Made by a program: the position numbers and the translations under genes. The notes below the pieces were generated by a model, which was not told where the DNA came from, did no database searches, and worked only from the letters and a program-made list of their open reading frames with translations. A stretch of 50,472 bases of DNA from Candidatus Woesearchaeota archaeon B3_Woes (lineage in GTDB: Archaea > Nanobdellota > Nanobdellia > Woesearchaeales > B3-WOES). The stretch is from NCBI GenBank assembly GCA_005222965.1, contig NJBG01000001.1, positions 499,061 to 549,532 of the forward strand, written 5' to 3'. Below, piece by piece: positions 4,732 through 23,127 of the stretch. Each line of letters opens with the position of its first letter. Within the stretch, counting starts at the first letter, position 1.

Positions 4732-5757
4732 ATGGGAATAGCATTTAAGGACATCATTCTAGGAAAAGAGATAGACATTAAAACCTTAAAAGGAAAAACC
4801 CTGATCATAGATACATTTAATCTATTATACCAATTTCTCAGTAGCATAAGATCAAGAGATGGGTCTTTGCTTACAGATTCTCAGGGAAACGTCACAAGCC
4901 ACCTAATTGGATTATTTTCTAGAATAACAAATTTACTCCAATATGATTTAAAATTAGTATTTGTTTTTGATGGAGAACCCCCTTCTTTAAAACAAAAAGA
5001 AAGAGAAAGAAGAAAACAATCCAAAATACAAGCCCAAAAAAAATACGAAACAGCAAAAGCAAAAGAAGACATAGAATCAATGAAAAAATATGCATCAAGA
5101 ACAACAGCACTTTCACAAGAAATGATAGAAGACGCCAAAAAATTAATACAATATTTAGGATTGCCAATAGTACAGGCCCCATCAGAAGGAGAAGCCCAGG
5201 CAGTTTATATTGCTAAAAAAGAAAACTGTTTTGTAGTAAGTCAAGATTATGATTCCTTGCTGTACGGCATACCCCAACTTATAAGAAATTTATCAATACT
5301 AGGCAAAAGAAAACAAACAAATAAACTAAGTTATACAACTGTTAAACCAGAGATAATTGACTTAGCAGATGTTCTTAATAATTTAACAATAGATTTAGAC
5401 CAGCTAATAGCAATGGCCATGTTAATAGGCACAGACTATAATCCTGGCGGGATTAAAGGGATTGGCCCTAAAAATGCATTAACCTTAGTCAAAAAATACA
5501 AAAAAGATTTTGATAGTTTATTTAAAGAAGTGAAATGGAACGAGTTTTTTGATTTTGAATGGAAAGAAGTATATGATTTATTTAAAAAAATGCCGGTTAC
5601 AGATGATTATGAACTAAAATGGAAAAGTATTAATACAAAAGAAATAAAAGAATTTTTATTAAAGCACGATTTTTCAGAGGAAAGAATAAATTCAACCTTA
5701 GAAAAACTTGAAAAAAAAGAAAATTCAAAAAAACAAAAATCACTTTTTGAATTTTAA
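4732..5757 (+). CDS. fen: Flap endonuclease 1 (FEN-1)
   Basis: FEN-1 removes 5' flaps during Okazaki fragment maturation and base excision repair. The 341-residue protein has the N-terminal XPG domain (about 1-100, with FVFDGEPP at the metal site) and the arch region rich in Lys/Glu. The internal XPG domain follows (APSEGEAQAVYIAKKE, SQDYDSLLYG). A helix-hairpin-helix region has GTDYNPGGIKGIGPKNAL. It ends in a PCNA-interaction motif, QKSLFEF (335-341), so it should be loaded by the sliding clamp. It starts one base after the preceding nuclease-fold gene. Confidence 0.96.
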   Translation: MGIAFKDIILGKEIDIKTLKGKTLIIDTFNLLYQFLSSIRSRDGSLLTDSQGNVTSHLIGLFSRITNLLQYDLKLVFVFDGEPPSLKQKERERRKQSKIQAQKKYETAKAKEDIESMKKYASRTTALSQEMIEDAKKLIQYLGLPIVQAPSEGEAQAVYIAKKENCFVVSQDYDSLLYGIPQLIRNLSILGKRKQTNKLSYTTVKPEIIDLADVLNNLTIDLDQLIAMAMLIGTDYNPGGIKGIGPKNALTLVKKYKKDFDSLFKEVKWNEFFDFEWKEVYDLFKKMPVTDDYELKWKSINTKEIKEFLLKHDFSEERINSTLEKLEKKENSKKQKSLFEF

Positions 5758-6654: not shown

Positions 6655-8256
6655 ATGCCCACACTAAAACAAACACTAAAAGGAAAATTAACAAGACAAG
6701 AACTGCAGCTAGTCCCCTCATCATTCGATGTAGTTGGTTCTATCCTGATTTTCTCAGAGTTTCCTAAAGAATTAGAAAGAAAAGAAAAAATAATTGCTCA
6801 ATCTTTAATCAAAGAATTAAAAAACGTAAAAACAATTTGTAAAAAAACAAGAAAATACTCTGGTAAACACAGAACACCAAAACTAAAAATTATGGCTGGA
6901 GAAAAAACAAAAGAAACAATACATAAAGAAAACAATATAACACTAAAACTAGATGTTGAAAAGGTTTATTTCTCCTCCCGACTCTCTAACGAAAGATTAA
7001 GAATTTCTAAATTAATAAAACCAAAAGAAAATGTTCTTGTTATGTTTTCGGGTTGTGCACCTTATCCTTGTGTAATAGCTAAAAACACTAAAGCGAACTC
7101 AATCATAGGAATTGAAATAAATCCTGTTGCTCACAAATATGCCCTTGAAAATATCAAACTAAACAAAATAACCAACACAACATTACATAAAGGCGATGTA
7201 AACAACATTTTACCAAAAATAGATTTTGAAGGAATAGCATTAAAATCAAGATGGCATAAAAAATATATTGGACCAAAACTAAAACAAAACCCCCCTTTAA
7301 TAGAATTTTATCTTCCAGAAGGAGATCTTGAATCTGATAAAAAACGAAAACAGATGGACAAAACAATAAAAAAACTTGCAAAAAAACAAATTAAAGTTAT
7401 GATCCATTCACCTCACGTTTATAACAAATCTAGGGAAATGTATTTAGCACAACACCCAGCAAAAATAAAGAACATAATAGAATGCATCAAAAAATTAGAT
7501 TCTGTCCAAAAAAATAATAAAAATGTTGTAGGACACATCTTTCACTCATCAGACGATAGATTAAAAAAAGACCACAAAGAAGAATGGTTGATTAAAAACA
7601 TAAAAACACTAAAAAAACTAGATTTATTAAAATACCTCTATCTTGAAAATGGAACAACAAAACCATTTGGTACAAAAAAAAGCATATTAAATGTTATTAA
7701 AAAAACACAACTAAAAAACATGTGCTTTGATTTTGCCCATTTTATGTATCTAAACAAAAAACTAACACTTGATGATTTCAAACAAATAAATTCTAAAACA
7801 AAACTATATAATCATGCAGTTAATCATAAATACAACAGTGGAGAACACTGTTGCAGATTAAGAGAAGGGGATCTTGATTTTAGAAAATTTGCAAAATACA
7901 TAGATTTCGGTTGTGTAGAAGTATATAGCAAAAGCGAAATAACAGCAAAAGAACAAATCGAAGACTATAAATATTTTTTATCAATAAAACCAACCAAAAA
8001 ATTTGACAGAATTCTAATGCCCCTCCCAAAATCAGCAGAAGATTATCTTGATTTAGCATTAACAAGAACAAAAAAAGGAACAATAATACATTTTTATGAT
8101 TTCCTAAATGAAAAAGAATTTGATTTAGCCAAACAAAAAGTGGAAAAAGCATGCAAAAAGGCAGAAAAGAAATTTAAAGTACTGAACCTTGTTAAATGCG
8201 GCCAATTCGCACCAAAAACATACAGAATCTGTTTAGATTTCAAGATATTATCATAA
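6655..8256 (+). CDS. Trm5/Tyw2-type tRNA methyltransferase interrupted by a TIM-barrel-like domain
   Basis: The outer parts match archaeal Trm5/Taw2-type enzymes that act on G37 of tRNA. They show an N-terminal region like Trm5 domains D1-D2 (1-95) and a Rossmann SAM site (127-160, MFSGCAPYP and GIEINPVAHKYA). After the GDV motif (180-182) the fold breaks off. It resumes at about 449 with FDRILMPLPKSAEDYLDLAL and IIHFYDF, the classical late methyltransferase strands. The intervening 250 residues look like an endonuclease IV/xylose-isomerase-like TIM barrel: HSPH (251-254), GHIFHSSDD (293-301), YLENG (329-333), CFDFAHFMY (357-365) and H398 plus EGDLDF. Normal family length is about 330-350; this protein has 533. 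It is the last gene of the fen transcript. The methyltransferase call is strong; the nature of the insert is inferred. Confidence 0.8.
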   Translation: MPTLKQTLKGKLTRQELQLVPSSFDVVGSILIFSEFPKELERKEKIIAQSLIKELKNVKTICKKTRKYSGKHRTPKLKIMAGEKTKETIHKENNITLKLDVEKVYFSSRLSNERLRISKLIKPKENVLVMFSGCAPYPCVIAKNTKANSIIGIEINPVAHKYALENIKLNKITNTTLHKGDVNNILPKIDFEGIALKSRWHKKYIGPKLKQNPPLIEFYLPEGDLESDKKRKQMDKTIKKLAKKQIKVMIHSPHVYNKSREMYLAQHPAKIKNIIECIKKLDSVQKNNKNVVGHIFHSSDDRLKKDHKEEWLIKNIKTLKKLDLLKYLYLENGTTKPFGTKKSILNVIKKTQLKNMCFDFAHFMYLNKKLTLDDFKQINSKTKLYNHAVNHKYNSGEHCCRLREGDLDFRKFAKYIDFGCVEVYSKSEITAKEQIEDYKYFLSIKPTKKFDRILMPLPKSAEDYLDLALTRTKKGTIIHFYDFLNEKEFDLAKQKVEKACKKAEKKFKVLNLVKCGQFAPKTYRICLDFKILS

Positions 8257-8367: not shown

Positions 8368-10152
8368 TTAAACAACAAACTTCCCTTTCTTTATTATCCA
8401 ATGGTTTTTGTGTTTACTATCTACTCCATAGACATCCATCTTTTGTCGTGGAGAATTGATTACCATATCCCAATGATACAACGTTTTTCTGTCCGGCTCA
8501 AACCCCATCCCCATTGCAACGTGCATCATCCTTGCTATTTTTTCATTAACAATCAAATAATCACATAATTTTGCTTTAGGATTTAGATTTACAGCAAATT
8601 CCCCAATATAATTAAAACACCTTCTGTACATTTTAGTCATAGAAACAGGCAAGGCCTTTTTATCCTCTATGTTCCTTATCTTTTCCATAGCATCGTCCTT
8701 TGTTGTTTTCATTTTATCTAATATTTTCTTTGGACCACTAACTACTGTATATTTGTTATCTTTTACTTTTATCACCAAAGGCTGTTTTGGATTTAATCTA
8801 TAGCTTTGGTCAATACTAATTACAACATCTCCAACAATTAATCCTTCTAATTTTTCAGGTGTTACAAAAGCCTCACCAGAAGGAAAATTAGCATACAATC
8901 CAGATTTTATTCCGGTTGCTTTATAATACTCTTGATCAATTTTAGTTGTAACATCAGAATCAGAAGCAATAAAATACCTTCTAATTTTTTTATCATCACT
9001 AACAAGACAAACAGTAAAATCTGTTTTCAAACCATTTTTTTCTTCACCAATCACCCTTATCCTATCACACTTATCTAAAATTGATTTTATTTTTTTGCTC
9101 CTCTTTCTAATTTTTTCATAATCAACATCACAAGTTTCAATAAAAATGTCTATAGGCAAGGTTTCAGTCATTGCATACCTCATTATTGGGTCCCTTGTTT
9201 CATATTTTGTTTGAGCTTCATACCTATCTTTTAACATCATCTGACCAGGACTCGTCCATCTTGATTTTTTGTTCAGAGTAGGATACCCAATACTTTCTCC
9301 AAAAAACATTTTTCCAGTATATCCTTTCCCATGTATACCAAAACCAGCATCGTTTAACTCAATTTTTTCCGCACCGAGTATAGGGGACAAAATCTTAAAT
9401 TTCTTAAAGACTTCTTCATCAACTTCTTTATCTAACTCGCATCCAATCAAAGTAGACATTAAATCAATAGTCCTTACACTATTCGCCAAAACAGAAAACT
9501 TATTTGTTGATGAACCCAACCCAACATTAGCTTTTAATCTCCTAGCTTCTAACGCCATAGCCATAGCCATACTATAAGAATCCAAATAATCTTTTAAAGG
9601 GAGCTCTAAATCTTCTTTTTTTGGGATTGTCTCAAAACTTATTCCTAATCTTTCATTCTTTTTAATATCATAACCTTTTTTTAATAGGGTATTAACAGTA
9701 CCTACTAATTCATTCCATCTATATTTTTTATACCATGAAAATTTATATTCCAAATCAAGTGTTCCTGTGAATCCTTTTTCTGTAGAATACAATAATAATT
9801 CTGGTTTTTTGAAAATATTCTTAAAAACTTTTGTTTTTGTTCTTTTGTTCACTTCATTAATAAAACTTTTTAGTGCTTTGGTTTTCTCAGTCTCTAACCC
9901 CTTTCTCATATCATGATAAATATTCCATACTTTCTTTAAAACCAAAAAATTTTCAGATTCTTTATGTTTAACAAGAACATGTAGTTCTCCATCTAAGTTA
10001 TGAACAGCTCTACTTAAGGGAGCAATTGAAAAAAAGGCCTTTTTATTAGTCAGATCACACACCAAAAACAACAATTTATTATTAACTTTACCTCTCAAAG
10101 AATTCTCATAATATTTAACATCGCTCTCAAATTTTTTACTACTATACTTCAT
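8368..10152 (-). CDS. M29-family (aminopeptidase T/AmpS-like) metallopeptidase
   Basis: M29 enzymes are two-metal cytoplasmic aminopeptidases. The C-terminal half keeps the metal ligands and the catalytic pair in order: E427 (FPSGEAF), E518 (YIGEFAVNLNP), H544 (MMHVAMGMG), Y559, H560 and D562 (LYHWDMV). The protein is 594 residues against about 370-410 in the family, so roughly 170-190 residues are extra. They lie mostly before residue 200, with a further region at about 265-330 that contains GKGYTGKMFFGESIGYP. Its ATG overlaps the TGA of the M24 gene by 4 bp, so both peptidases are probably made together to finish peptide breakdown. Substrate unknown. Confidence 0.75.
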   Translation of the reverse strand: MKYSSKKFESDVKYYENSLRGKVNNKLLFLVCDLTNKKAFFSIAPLSRAVHNLDGELHVLVKHKESENFLVLKKVWNIYHDMRKGLETEKTKALKSFINEVNKRTKTKVFKNIFKKPELLLYSTEKGFTGTLDLEYKFSWYKKYRWNELVGTVNTLLKKGYDIKKNERLGISFETIPKKEDLELPLKDYLDSYSMAMAMALEARRLKANVGLGSSTNKFSVLANSVRTIDLMSTLIGCELDKEVDEEVFKKFKILSPILGAEKIELNDAGFGIHGKGYTGKMFFGESIGYPTLNKKSRWTSPGQMMLKDRYEAQTKYETRDPIMRYAMTETLPIDIFIETCDVDYEKIRKRSKKIKSILDKCDRIRVIGEEKNGLKTDFTVCLVSDDKKIRRYFIASDSDVTTKIDQEYYKATGIKSGLYANFPSGEAFVTPEKLEGLIVGDVVISIDQSYRLNPKQPLVIKVKDNKYTVVSGPKKILDKMKTTKDDAMEKIRNIEDKKALPVSMTKMYRRCFNYIGEFAVNLNPKAKLCDYLIVNEKIARMMHVAMGMGFEPDRKTLYHWDMVINSPRQKMDVYGVDSKHKNHWIIKKGKFVV

Positions 10153-20807: not shown

Positions 20808-22010
20808 TTAATCTTCATCATCATCCTTTTCAATCAATTCAATTTGTATACTAACAATATCAACTGTAGTCTTTGGTATTAATTTAACATAATTCCTACC
20901 TTCCTCAACCCAACTATTAATTTGTTTTTCATAAAAAGGCTCTTCTTGATCAACTCTTCTCATATGACCATTTACATTTATATCAAGCTCTTTGTTTTCA
21001 TCATCATCAACAAATTCTAAAGTTAAATTTGCATCAGATACCCCTCCCATGATGTTCTCCATTTGTTCTTCACTTATCTCAAACCAATATAAAGGAGAAC
21101 TTAGTTCTTCTAATTCTAAATCAATTTCTATAAGATCAATCAGATAACTACCCTCATTAGTCATAAAGATTACATTATTTATTCCAGCATCTAAAGCTCC
21201 AACAGGAACTTCATATCTGTTTAGCATCCCGCAATCAGGAACACCAGAAAATACATTTATATTGTTAACCATAACATCTAATGTTCCAACTTCATTTTGT
21301 TTACAATCTGGATGGAATTTTAAAGTTGCTTTTTCTAAATTATTATATTTCCATGGTTCTAATGTGAATATATTCTTTGTTTTTTGTCTGCTAATGTCTG
21401 TTACATCCCCTATAATCTTCACACCCTCAAAATTATATTCATTTGTACTCCAAAAAGCAAGACCTACTCCAGAAACACTAAACTTTAAAGTATTGCCCTC
21501 ATCATTAAAATATTGTTTTCTTAACTTAATAGGTTCAACATTTTGGGTTGTAATTAAACTTTCATAAATATTGTTTCCATTAAGGTCTACTGACAAAACA
21601 CCAGAATGTTTTCTAACAGAAAAACTTAGAATTATATTATCGCTATTATCTAAATTATCTATAAAAAAACTCTTTTCAACAATTTTTTCATCAAACCAGC
21701 CCTTCCTAATAGAAAAGTCATTAAACACTTCAAGCTCTTTAGCATTAGTGGTTTTGTAAAGCTTAAACGATGGAATATCAATCTCAAATTCGTCACCCTT
21801 TAGATAATCCAATCTTCCAGGCTCTTCATCCAATAAAACACTTACTTCCTCATCCTCACTATCTACATTCCCATTATTATCTCCTTCCTCACCCAATAAA
21901 TCTGCCCTTTCAGCAGGCTCTAAAAATAGAATATAAAGAATAATCAAACCAGCAATTATAGCAACTAATCCTGCAGCTCCTCCACCACTTTGCCCTCTTT
22001 TTTTAACCAT
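20808..22010 (-). CDS. Bitopic surface protein with acidic stalk and beta-rich domain
   Basis: I chose the ATG at 22010 with AGGTG six bases upstream, over an in-frame GTG at 22019. The 400-residue product begins with a basic segment (MVKKRGQSGG), one membrane helix (about 12-31, ending LYILFLEP) and an acidic stalk (EGDNNGNVDSEDEEVSVLLDEE). The outer part is beta-rich with jelly-roll-like repeats such as ITTQNVEPIKLRKQYF, LKFSVSGVGLAFW and INNVIFMTNEGSYLIDLIEIDLEL. It resembles carbohydrate-binding beta-sandwiches, but no family is certain. It is the first gene of the surface operon, 26 bp before the 7-TM gene. Confidence 0.65.
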   Translation of the reverse strand: MVKKRGQSGGGAAGLVAIIAGLIILYILFLEPAERADLLGEEGDNNGNVDSEDEEVSVLLDEEPGRLDYLKGDEFEIDIPSFKLYKTTNAKELEVFNDFSIRKGWFDEKIVEKSFFIDNLDNSDNIILSFSVRKHSGVLSVDLNGNNIYESLITTQNVEPIKLRKQYFNDEGNTLKFSVSGVGLAFWSTNEYNFEGVKIIGDVTDISRQKTKNIFTLEPWKYNNLEKATLKFHPDCKQNEVGTLDVMVNNINVFSGVPDCGMLNRYEVPVGALDAGINNVIFMTNEGSYLIDLIEIDLELEELSSPLYWFEISEEQMENIMGGVSDANLTLEFVDDDENKELDINVNGHMRRVDQEEPFYEKQINSWVEEGRNYVKLIPKTTVDIVSIQIELIEKDDDED

Positions 22011-22041
22011 AAACGTCACCTACTCTCAAATAATAAATAAC

Positions 22042-22053
22042 TTTATATATAAA
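22042..22053. promoter_or_regulatory. Shared divergent TATA element for pelA and the surface operon
   Basis: TTTATATATAAA is a perfect palindrome and can work in both directions. On the plus strand TTTATATA is centred 26.5 nt before the Pelota ATG, giving a leaderless mRNA. On the minus strand a start near 22021 would give a leader of about 11 nt containing AGGTG before the bitopic protein start. Confidence 0.6.
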
Positions 22054-22071
22054 TCTTTTTATTTTAACAAT

Positions 22072-23127
22072 ATGAAAATAATTAACCAAAATCTCAAAAA
22101 AGGAGAAATAAAATTAAAAATAGAAAATCTAGATGATATATGGTATCTAAGCCATATAATAGATAAAAATGATATTATTAAAGGAAAAACCACAAGAAAA
22201 GTAAAGATAGGAGAACAGGAACAAAGAAATCAAAAAATAGTAAAAAAACAAGTTTTCATAAAACTTCAAACAGAAAAAACAGAATTTACAAACAATTCCT
22301 TAAGAGTTTCTGGAAAAATCATTGAAGCGCCAGAAGACATCCCCTTAGCATCATACCACACATTTAATCTAGAAGAAAACACAACCATAAACATAATAAA
22401 AGAAAAATGGTTAAAATTTCAGCTTGATAAATTAAAAGAAGCATCTCAAGAAACAAAATCAAAAATACTTATTGTAGTTTTAGATAGGGAAGAATCAATA
22501 TTTGCATTAATGAAAAAAAGTGGATATAAATTATTAACAAAGATTAAAGGAAACGTAACCAAAAAAGCAGCCGAAGAAAAAATAAAATCAAATTTTTATT
22601 CTGAAATAATCAATAAAGTTAAAGAATATGACAAAAGATACAATTTTAGCAAAATAATAATAGCTTCTCCAATTTTCTGGAAAGAAGAATTAATGAAAGA
22701 ATTAAAAGATAAAGATTTAAAACAAAAAATAATCCAAGCAACATGTTCTTCTGCAAATGTAGACGGAATTACAGAAGTTCTAAAAAGACCAGAAACCCAG
22801 GAAGCACTAAAACAAGATAGAATAACAAAAGAAATAAATCTAGTTGAAGAATTATTAAAAGAAATTTCTAAAAATAATTTAGCAGCATATGGTATAAACC
22901 AAACAGAAAAAGCGATCGAAGCAGGAGCAGTAAAAACATTAATTCTAACAGACTCTTTTATTCAAAAACAAAGAGAAAAAGAAAATTATGAAAAGATAGA
23001 TTTAATGTTAAAAAACACAGAAGAAATAAAAGGCTCAGTCAATATAATTTCTGCAGAACATGAAGGAGGAAAAAAATTAAACGGCTTAGGCGGAATTGGC
23101 GCACTACTAAGATACAAATTAATATAA
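22072..23127 (+). CDS. pelA: Pelota (Dom34) ribosome rescue factor
   Basis: Archaeal Pelota binds the empty A site of stalled ribosomes and splits them together with aEF1A/ABCE1 for no-go and non-stop mRNA decay. The 351 residues show the N-terminal Sm-like domain (1-125, with EDLDDIWYLSHIID-like start KIENLDDIWYL and GKIIEAPEDIPLASYHTF). The central domain has ILIVVLDREESIFALMKKSGY and FSKIIIASPIFWKEEL. The C-terminal eRF1-like domain has YGINQTEKAIEAGAVKTLILTDSF. The catalytic GGQ of eRF1 is absent, as expected. Predicted leaderless from a TATA palindrome shared with the divergent surface operon. Confidence 0.95.
   Translation: MKIINQNLKKGEIKLKIENLDDIWYLSHIIDKNDIIKGKTTRKVKIGEQEQRNQKIVKKQVFIKLQTEKTEFTNNSLRVSGKIIEAPEDIPLASYHTFNLEENTTINIIKEKWLKFQLDKLKEASQETKSKILIVVLDREESIFALMKKSGYKLLTKIKGNVTKKAAEEKIKSNFYSEIINKVKEYDKRYNFSKIIIASPIFWKEELMKELKDKDLKQKIIQATCSSANVDGITEVLKRPETQEALKQDRITKEINLVEELLKEISKNNLAAYGINQTEKAIEAGAVKTLILTDSFIQKQREKENYEKIDLMLKNTEEIKGSVNIISAEHEGGKKLNGLGGIGALLRYKLI

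Follow-up and report, generated by a model that had tools for sequence, protein, structure and literature searches.

A predicted metal-site barrel inserted in a Trm5/Taw22-type tRNA methyltransferase of Woesearchaeota archaea and exchanged by recombination

Some tiny Woesearchaeota archaea carry, inside a tRNA methyltransferase, a domain whose relatives are nucleases of DNA repair and isomerases of sugars. What might this domain do, and how does it come to lie there? The question was addressed with a 50,472-nt stretch of DNA (the window), in which an open reading frame at 6655-8256 of the forward strand runs without interruption for 533 aa. It encodes a tRNA-G37 methyltransferase of the Trm5/Taw22 type that is split by an insert at residues ~191-446 (7225-7992), and it has the following parts:

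6655..7224, + strand: Trm5/Taw22-type methyltransferase, first part, with a TYW2_N_2/D2-like region, Rossmann β1-β3, αC, and the SAM-site residues E154 and D181 (Pfam TYW2_N_2 and TRM5-TYW2_MTfase; Foldseek match to Trm5b, 5yac)
7225..7992, + strand: inserted xylose isomerase/endonuclease IV-like (β/α)8 barrel, residues 191-446 (AlphaFold, Foldseek, Pfam)
7993..8256, + strand: Trm5/Taw22 methyltransferase, second part, from β4 with the M-P456-L-P-K459 motif to the stop codon (second Pfam stretch G000:C1:507044-507226; invariant M455, P456, L457, P458, and K459)

The methyltransferase and its inserted barrel

The Trm5/TYW2 methyltransferase was recognized in two pieces of the reading frame by both Pfam and NCBIfam. 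The match to Pfam TRM5-TYW2 had an E-value of 6.5e-42 (143.7 bits compared to a cut-off of 28). The best NCBIfam score was for Trm5b, at 204.5 bits compared to an equivalog cut-off of 600, and Taw22 scored 168.6 bits compared to 550. Since neither cut-off was reached, the host was placed at the Trm5/Taw22 level only. Sequence relatives of the protein in the PDB were Trm5b, Trm5a, and TYW2, and the profile match together with Foldseek (5yac, 6e-21) showed that D2 and the class-I Rossmann D3 are present. A Trm5-type host, as proposed in a first-pass annotation of the sequence, was borne out by these searches. Archaeal Trm5b and Trm5a/Taw22 (PDB 5yac, 5wt1, 2zzm) have this D2-D3 fold and the SAM and catalytic residues in common with the window protein. 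In contrast to them, it has a 256-residue barrel between αC and β4 and lacks the N-terminal D1, the tRNA-binding domain that serves as a criterion for Trm5b/c.

E154, D181, the arginine of the SPR-type motif, and the strand-4 motif were invariant among 17 fused proteins, and the roles of the SAM and catalytic residues are known from PaTrm5a structures (PMC5024318). The fused gene was the sole Trm5 match in each fused genome (10 fused among 60 relatives). The methyltransferase part looks intact and is predicted to be catalytically active; the outer half of the protein would be a working SAM-dependent, Trm5/Taw22-type enzyme for base 37 of tRNA.

The strand-4 motif reads P456-L-P-K459 in the window (8020-8031) and was also seen in relatives. 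Set against 5yac, 5wt1, and 2zzm, it shares the proline found in PaTrm5a, with PLPK in place of PTPK. PaTrm5a has PTPK where MjTrm5b has Asn, and this position lets Trm5a accept imG-14 (PMC7761594). Because PLPK resembles PTPK, the host may be of the Taw22 type, though Trm5b scores best with NCBIfam. The motif also suggests a dual m1G37/imG2 activity in these archaea, like that of the bifunctional Trm5a/Taw22.

In the AlphaFold prediction for the whole protein, made with 44 homologues, the methyltransferase fold is unbroken and the barrel forms a complete domain of its own (pLDDT 94.5, pTM 0.87); the insert modeled alone had pLDDT 94.2 and pTM 0.92. The eight predicted barrel strands (194-198, 215-219, 247-251, 291-297, 328-331, 355-359, 383-388, and 419-421) alternate with helices as in a TIM barrel. 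Structure prediction, which the annotation had named as a check, thus gives a separate (β/α)8 domain. Its claim that this domain is inserted and not end-fused was upheld by the model, the two-stretch profile matches, and plain relatives joined at the same point, and the limits at residues 191-446 lie at most one codon from those first given.

Foldseek matched the insert to AsbF (6e-8), UVDE (1.2e-7), UlaE (1.2e-7), endonuclease IV (1.7e-7), and other xylose isomerase-like barrels in the range of 1e-7 to 1e-8. This superfamily placement agrees with the endonuclease IV or xylose isomerase kind of barrel originally suggested; within the family, Foldseek did not separate nucleases from sugar epimerases and dehydratases. 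Pfam AP_endonuc_2 matched 20 of 24 insert homologues (best E 1.9e-12), with the window insert at 16.2-16.4 bits, below the curated cut-off of 31.1. The insert has both the predicted (β/α)8 fold and the E-D-H-E site at the strand ends by which the xylose isomerase-like superfamily is defined.

In the AlphaFold model, the barrel falls between αC (182-191) and β4 (450-455) of the methyltransferase. In class-I Rossmann methyltransferases, α-to-β turns are found where the strands have their N-terminal edge, across from SAM. By this topology, the barrel should sit on the face opposite the SAM site and the G37 pocket, and the earlier idea that the insertion lies where the tRNA enters the active site was not supported. 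Since the topology puts the insertion point at a distance from the G37 pocket, it does not require the two domains to share a tRNA substrate. A TIM barrel begins and ends at nearby points, so it can be inserted in such a turn with the host fold left whole.

The metal site and its predicted chemistry

The His/Glu/Asp-rich strand ends that first drew attention were found to be conserved in an alignment of 24 insert homologues, including two standalone ones, with ~21-62% identity to the window insert. E217, H297, E331, D359, H387, G419, and E422 were invariant over the 24 inserts, and H251 and H362 were nearly so. The putative ligands were located by these alignments and AlphaFold:

7303..7305, + strand: E217, invariant, end of barrel strand 2
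7405..7407, + strand: H251, end of strand 3, equivalent of endonuclease IV H69
7543..7545, + strand: H297, end of strand 4, equivalent of endonuclease IV H109
7645..7647, + strand: E331, end of strand 5, equivalent of endonuclease IV E145
7729..7740, + strand: D359-F-A-H362, end of strand 6, equivalents of endonuclease IV D179 and H182
7813..7815, + strand: H387, strand 7, equivalent of endonuclease IV H216 and UlaE H211
7918..7920, + strand: E422, strand 8, equivalent of UlaE E251 (endonuclease IV E261)

The best PDB match of the insert profile was the probable endonuclease IV 5zhz (E 9.5e-5), and this alignment pairs H251, H297, E331, D359, H362, and H387 with H69, H109, E145, D179, H182, and H216 (E. 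coli numbering). Alignments with E. coli Nfo and UlaE agreed for strands 6-8, and the equivalence of E422 to E261 was taken from the UlaE alignment and from its position. The established numbering of the Nfo ligands was checked against the Nfo sequence. Seven of the nine endonuclease IV ligands therefore have equivalents in the insert, which shares the TIM barrel and these residues with Nfo, 5zhz, and 8rly, and the TIM barrel with the UV damage endonuclease UVDE. In contrast to endonuclease IV, the insert is about 250 aa long, is embedded in a methyltransferase, and lacks the third-metal pair D229/H231, whose positions are variable among the inserts. By the three-metal, nine-ligand criterion, it is thus not an endonuclease IV. 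Judged by its ligand pattern, the barrel appears to be a functional metal enzyme of the mono- or dinuclear kind.

The explanation that we favor, tentatively and at a little under an even chance, is a two-enzyme protein in which a Trm5/Taw22 methyltransferase is combined with a metal-dependent barrel that may be a nucleic-acid phosphodiesterase and that spreads by recombination. The inner 256 residues would be a metal-dependent barrel of the xylose isomerase/endonuclease IV superfamily in the αC-β4 turn, and it would most likely hydrolyze a phosphodiester bond of tRNA or of some other nucleic acid. We favor a phosphodiesterase in view of the tRNA-binding host and of the conservation of the additional histidines of nuclease type; against it, sugar epimerases and dehydratases belong to this family of barrels too, and the third-metal pair of endonuclease IV is not conserved. 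As the first-pass annotation had proposed, the barrel may have a second activity on the tRNA that its host methylates.

Another explanation is that the barrel is a metabolic sugar isomerase, epimerase, or dehydratase that rides in a tolerant site of Trm5 and has nothing to do with tRNA. The insert does have the conserved E-D-H-E site of ketose epimerases and an end ('GxGxxDF...G..EV') that resembles UlaE. AsbF and UlaE were among its best Foldseek matches, and two homologues stand alone, away from Trm5. The epimerases and dehydratases UlaE (3cqj), AsbF (3dx5), and YcjR (6wn6) have the fold and the metal tetrad in common with it. However, the insert differs from them in the extra conserved His residues on strands 3 and 4 and in having no metabolic gene context. 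These residues, H251 and H297, match the extra endonuclease IV metal site, the meaningful PDB sequence-profile matches were AP endonucleases and not isomerases, and every fused copy found sits in a single host gene, Trm5. We consider a metabolic role doubtful. A barrel of the same superfamily fused to another enzyme is known from 5hmq, a xylose isomerase-like barrel/HPPD protein, but that is listed as a fusion with a dioxygenase and not as an insertion in a tRNA enzyme.

It is unlikely that the barrel is mainly a structural, RNA-binding, or oligomerization module with an inherited metal site that is no longer catalytic. Barrels with lost ligands do persist in frame (G247, G022), and the window protein lacks D1. 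However, the ligands are kept in most homologues despite an insert identity of about 25-30%, and a non-catalytic role needs none of them. D1 is also present in most of the fused relatives, so the barrel is not a replacement for D1. An RNA-binding clamp, the other role suggested at first, would as the whole story leave a fully conserved metal site unexplained.

Distribution, exchange, and decay of the insert

Among 60 related genomes, 10 had the same continuous protein over the barrel, and in most of the others the regions matching residues ~1-189 and ~447-532 were directly adjacent. For example, 21885-22433 and 21627-21884 adjoin in the plain gene of G036, and one plain junction reads GDVKKILPKL-KKKFDRILMPLPK. 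A genome scan with the single insert gave no matches and an inserts-only alignment was too variable; a full-length alignment worked. Matches to the insert were found in 30 of 353 genomes of the order. Of these, 26 were fused, two were standalone barrels away from Trm5 (G086/L051, G330/L054), and those of G306 and G060 were ordinary AP-endonuclease-like proteins. Fused genes also occur outside the order, elsewhere in the class (G524, G563, G574, G627). The named contigs belong to Candidatus Woesearchaeota and other DPANN-type archaea. The distribution of the insert is patchy, and fused and plain genes were found together within one genus (G131/G042, G130/G127, G247/G248). No description of such an insert in a Trm5 subfamily, which the first-pass annotation had named as a point against its reading, was found in the literature searched. 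The Trm5 of G330 (L181 784-2040), a genome that also has a standalone barrel copy, carries a different segment of ~130 aa before strand 4 and lacks the GDV motif.

The omega values of the insert were 0.05-0.25 in close pairs, like those of the host part, indicating purifying selection. In G247/L121 and G022/L020, the metal ligands are lost with the frame still open, and the function of the barrel is thus dispensable. These natural dead-barrel versions, at L178 1252-2859 (G247) and in L020 (G022), have lost most of their metal ligands and keep an intact frame. The barrel may have been lost or decayed in some lineages with m1G37 formation retained, in which case its activity would be useful but dispensable.

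On a 97-gene tree, the fused/plain label requires 13 changes, at least five of them on well-supported branches, and the insert and methyltransferase trees conflict. The G131 insert groups with families f41/f16 (100/99) and the G131 methyltransferase with G130 (99/98), and constraint tests rejected agreement between the trees for this gene (AU p 0.0131 and 0.00128). Both ends of the G131 gene resemble its own family, and the gene is f41-like from residue ~104-123 to ~449 (permutation p 0.0002). G019 resembles the plain gene L118 except at residues 163-189, adjoining the insert, where it resembles the fused G106 (permutation p 0.0002). Two matched controls gave p-values of 0.38 and 0.48. G019 and L118 are largely collinear, with 72-78% DNA identity over ~8-11 kb except for the insert region and some intergenic gaps, a comparison that does not fix the direction of gain or loss. 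GC3 of G019 was 31.5% in the insert compared to 44.6% in the host part. At least these two genes are mosaics, with ends that resemble close relatives and with an insert and neighboring methyltransferase codons that resemble a distant lineage. They show that recombination has exchanged the domain between lineages that are far apart.

When the fused genes were scanned systematically, 4 of the 24 that could be tested had p ≤ 0.002; of 186 plain controls, 2 fell below 0.0024. This test has an upward bias (14.5% of the plain controls scored below 0.05), since the gene ends determined which relative served as the reference, and the fused and plain sets differed in how donors were picked; for these reasons, we relied on G131 and G019.

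For the window gene, the methyltransferase sister is the plain G001 (97*) and the nearest insert is that of family f7, which suggested an exchange. Forcing the window gene and f7 together on the methyltransferase tree was not rejected (AU p 0.098). The mosaic test was negative with G001 (p 0.55) and gave 0.002 with G010, and the window gene was dropped as a demonstrated mosaic since this result was not robust to the partner.

In the two-enzyme explanation that we favor, homologous recombination between alleles would carry the barrel from one Trm5 gene to another; in at least two recombinant genes, the insert goes along with methyltransferase sequence on its flanks. An enzyme central to tRNA modification accommodates in its core a whole second domain with a metal site, kept under selection in several lineages. 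Recombination within a single gene adds, swaps, and removes this domain. To our knowledge, such events have seldom been documented for a domain that is folded and not spliced, and they open both its function and the way it spreads to testing. The barrel could mark either a new step that acts on anticodon-loop tRNA of DPANN archaea or a new means by which a domain maintains itself within a host gene.

An intein was rejected: no splice motifs were seen by eye at the ends of the insert, which runs from 'FEGIALKSR' to 'YFLSIKP' with no Cys/Ser start or HN-Cys/Ser/Thr end, and no intein model matched the window protein. A viral or phage origin was also rejected, as no relative was found in viral contigs (two queries) or phages.

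A homing-like selfish domain of nuclease fold, which would cut plain Trm5 genes where the insert lies and be copied in as the cut is repaired, without splicing, appears quite improbable. It would fit the single insertion site, the plain and fused alleles within one genus, the decayed copies, the nuclease-type fold, and the flanking tracts that go with the insert. However, flanks move along with the insert in every recombination event that transfers it, so the tracts do not show homing. We know of no homing endonuclease with this fold, intein or intron splicing elements and viral relatives were not seen, and strong purifying selection also fits a benefit to the host. We give very little weight to the broader proposal that an unspliced, in-frame nuclease-fold barrel spreads by homing into empty Trm5 alleles with its flanks, as a mobile domain without an intron or intein. 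Although the genomes concerned are metagenome assemblies, an assembly or binning artefact is practically negligible, given that over 20 genomes, which come from many projects, have the frame uninterrupted, that there is one junction, and that the strand-end ligands are conserved.

Genomic context

A link to wyosine was rejected, since Taw1 and Taw3 showed no clear association with the fusion: Taw1 was present in 19/23 fused compared to 23/32 plain genomes, and the fused G313 has neither Taw1 nor Taw3 at 100% completeness. A defence system was likewise rejected. PADLOC found nothing for the insert, and its mad2 match (1.4e-14) covers only the methyltransferase part, which we read as reflecting the shared fold.

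A 594-aa protein at 8368-10152 of the window (- strand) has no significant Pfam family; its best match was to M29 peptidase (E 0.007). The upstream neighbour of the fused gene is as follows:

4732..5757, + strand: FEN1/XPG flap endonuclease, not part of the fusion (Pfam XPG_I, XPG_N)

At 17/21 fused and 41/50 plain loci (the window and L090-L169), FEN1 was the close upstream neighbour of Trm5. Since this neighbourhood is the same in fused and plain loci, it gives no hint about the barrel; FEN1-Trm5 is a conserved DNA-repair/tRNA-modification neighbourhood of the order.
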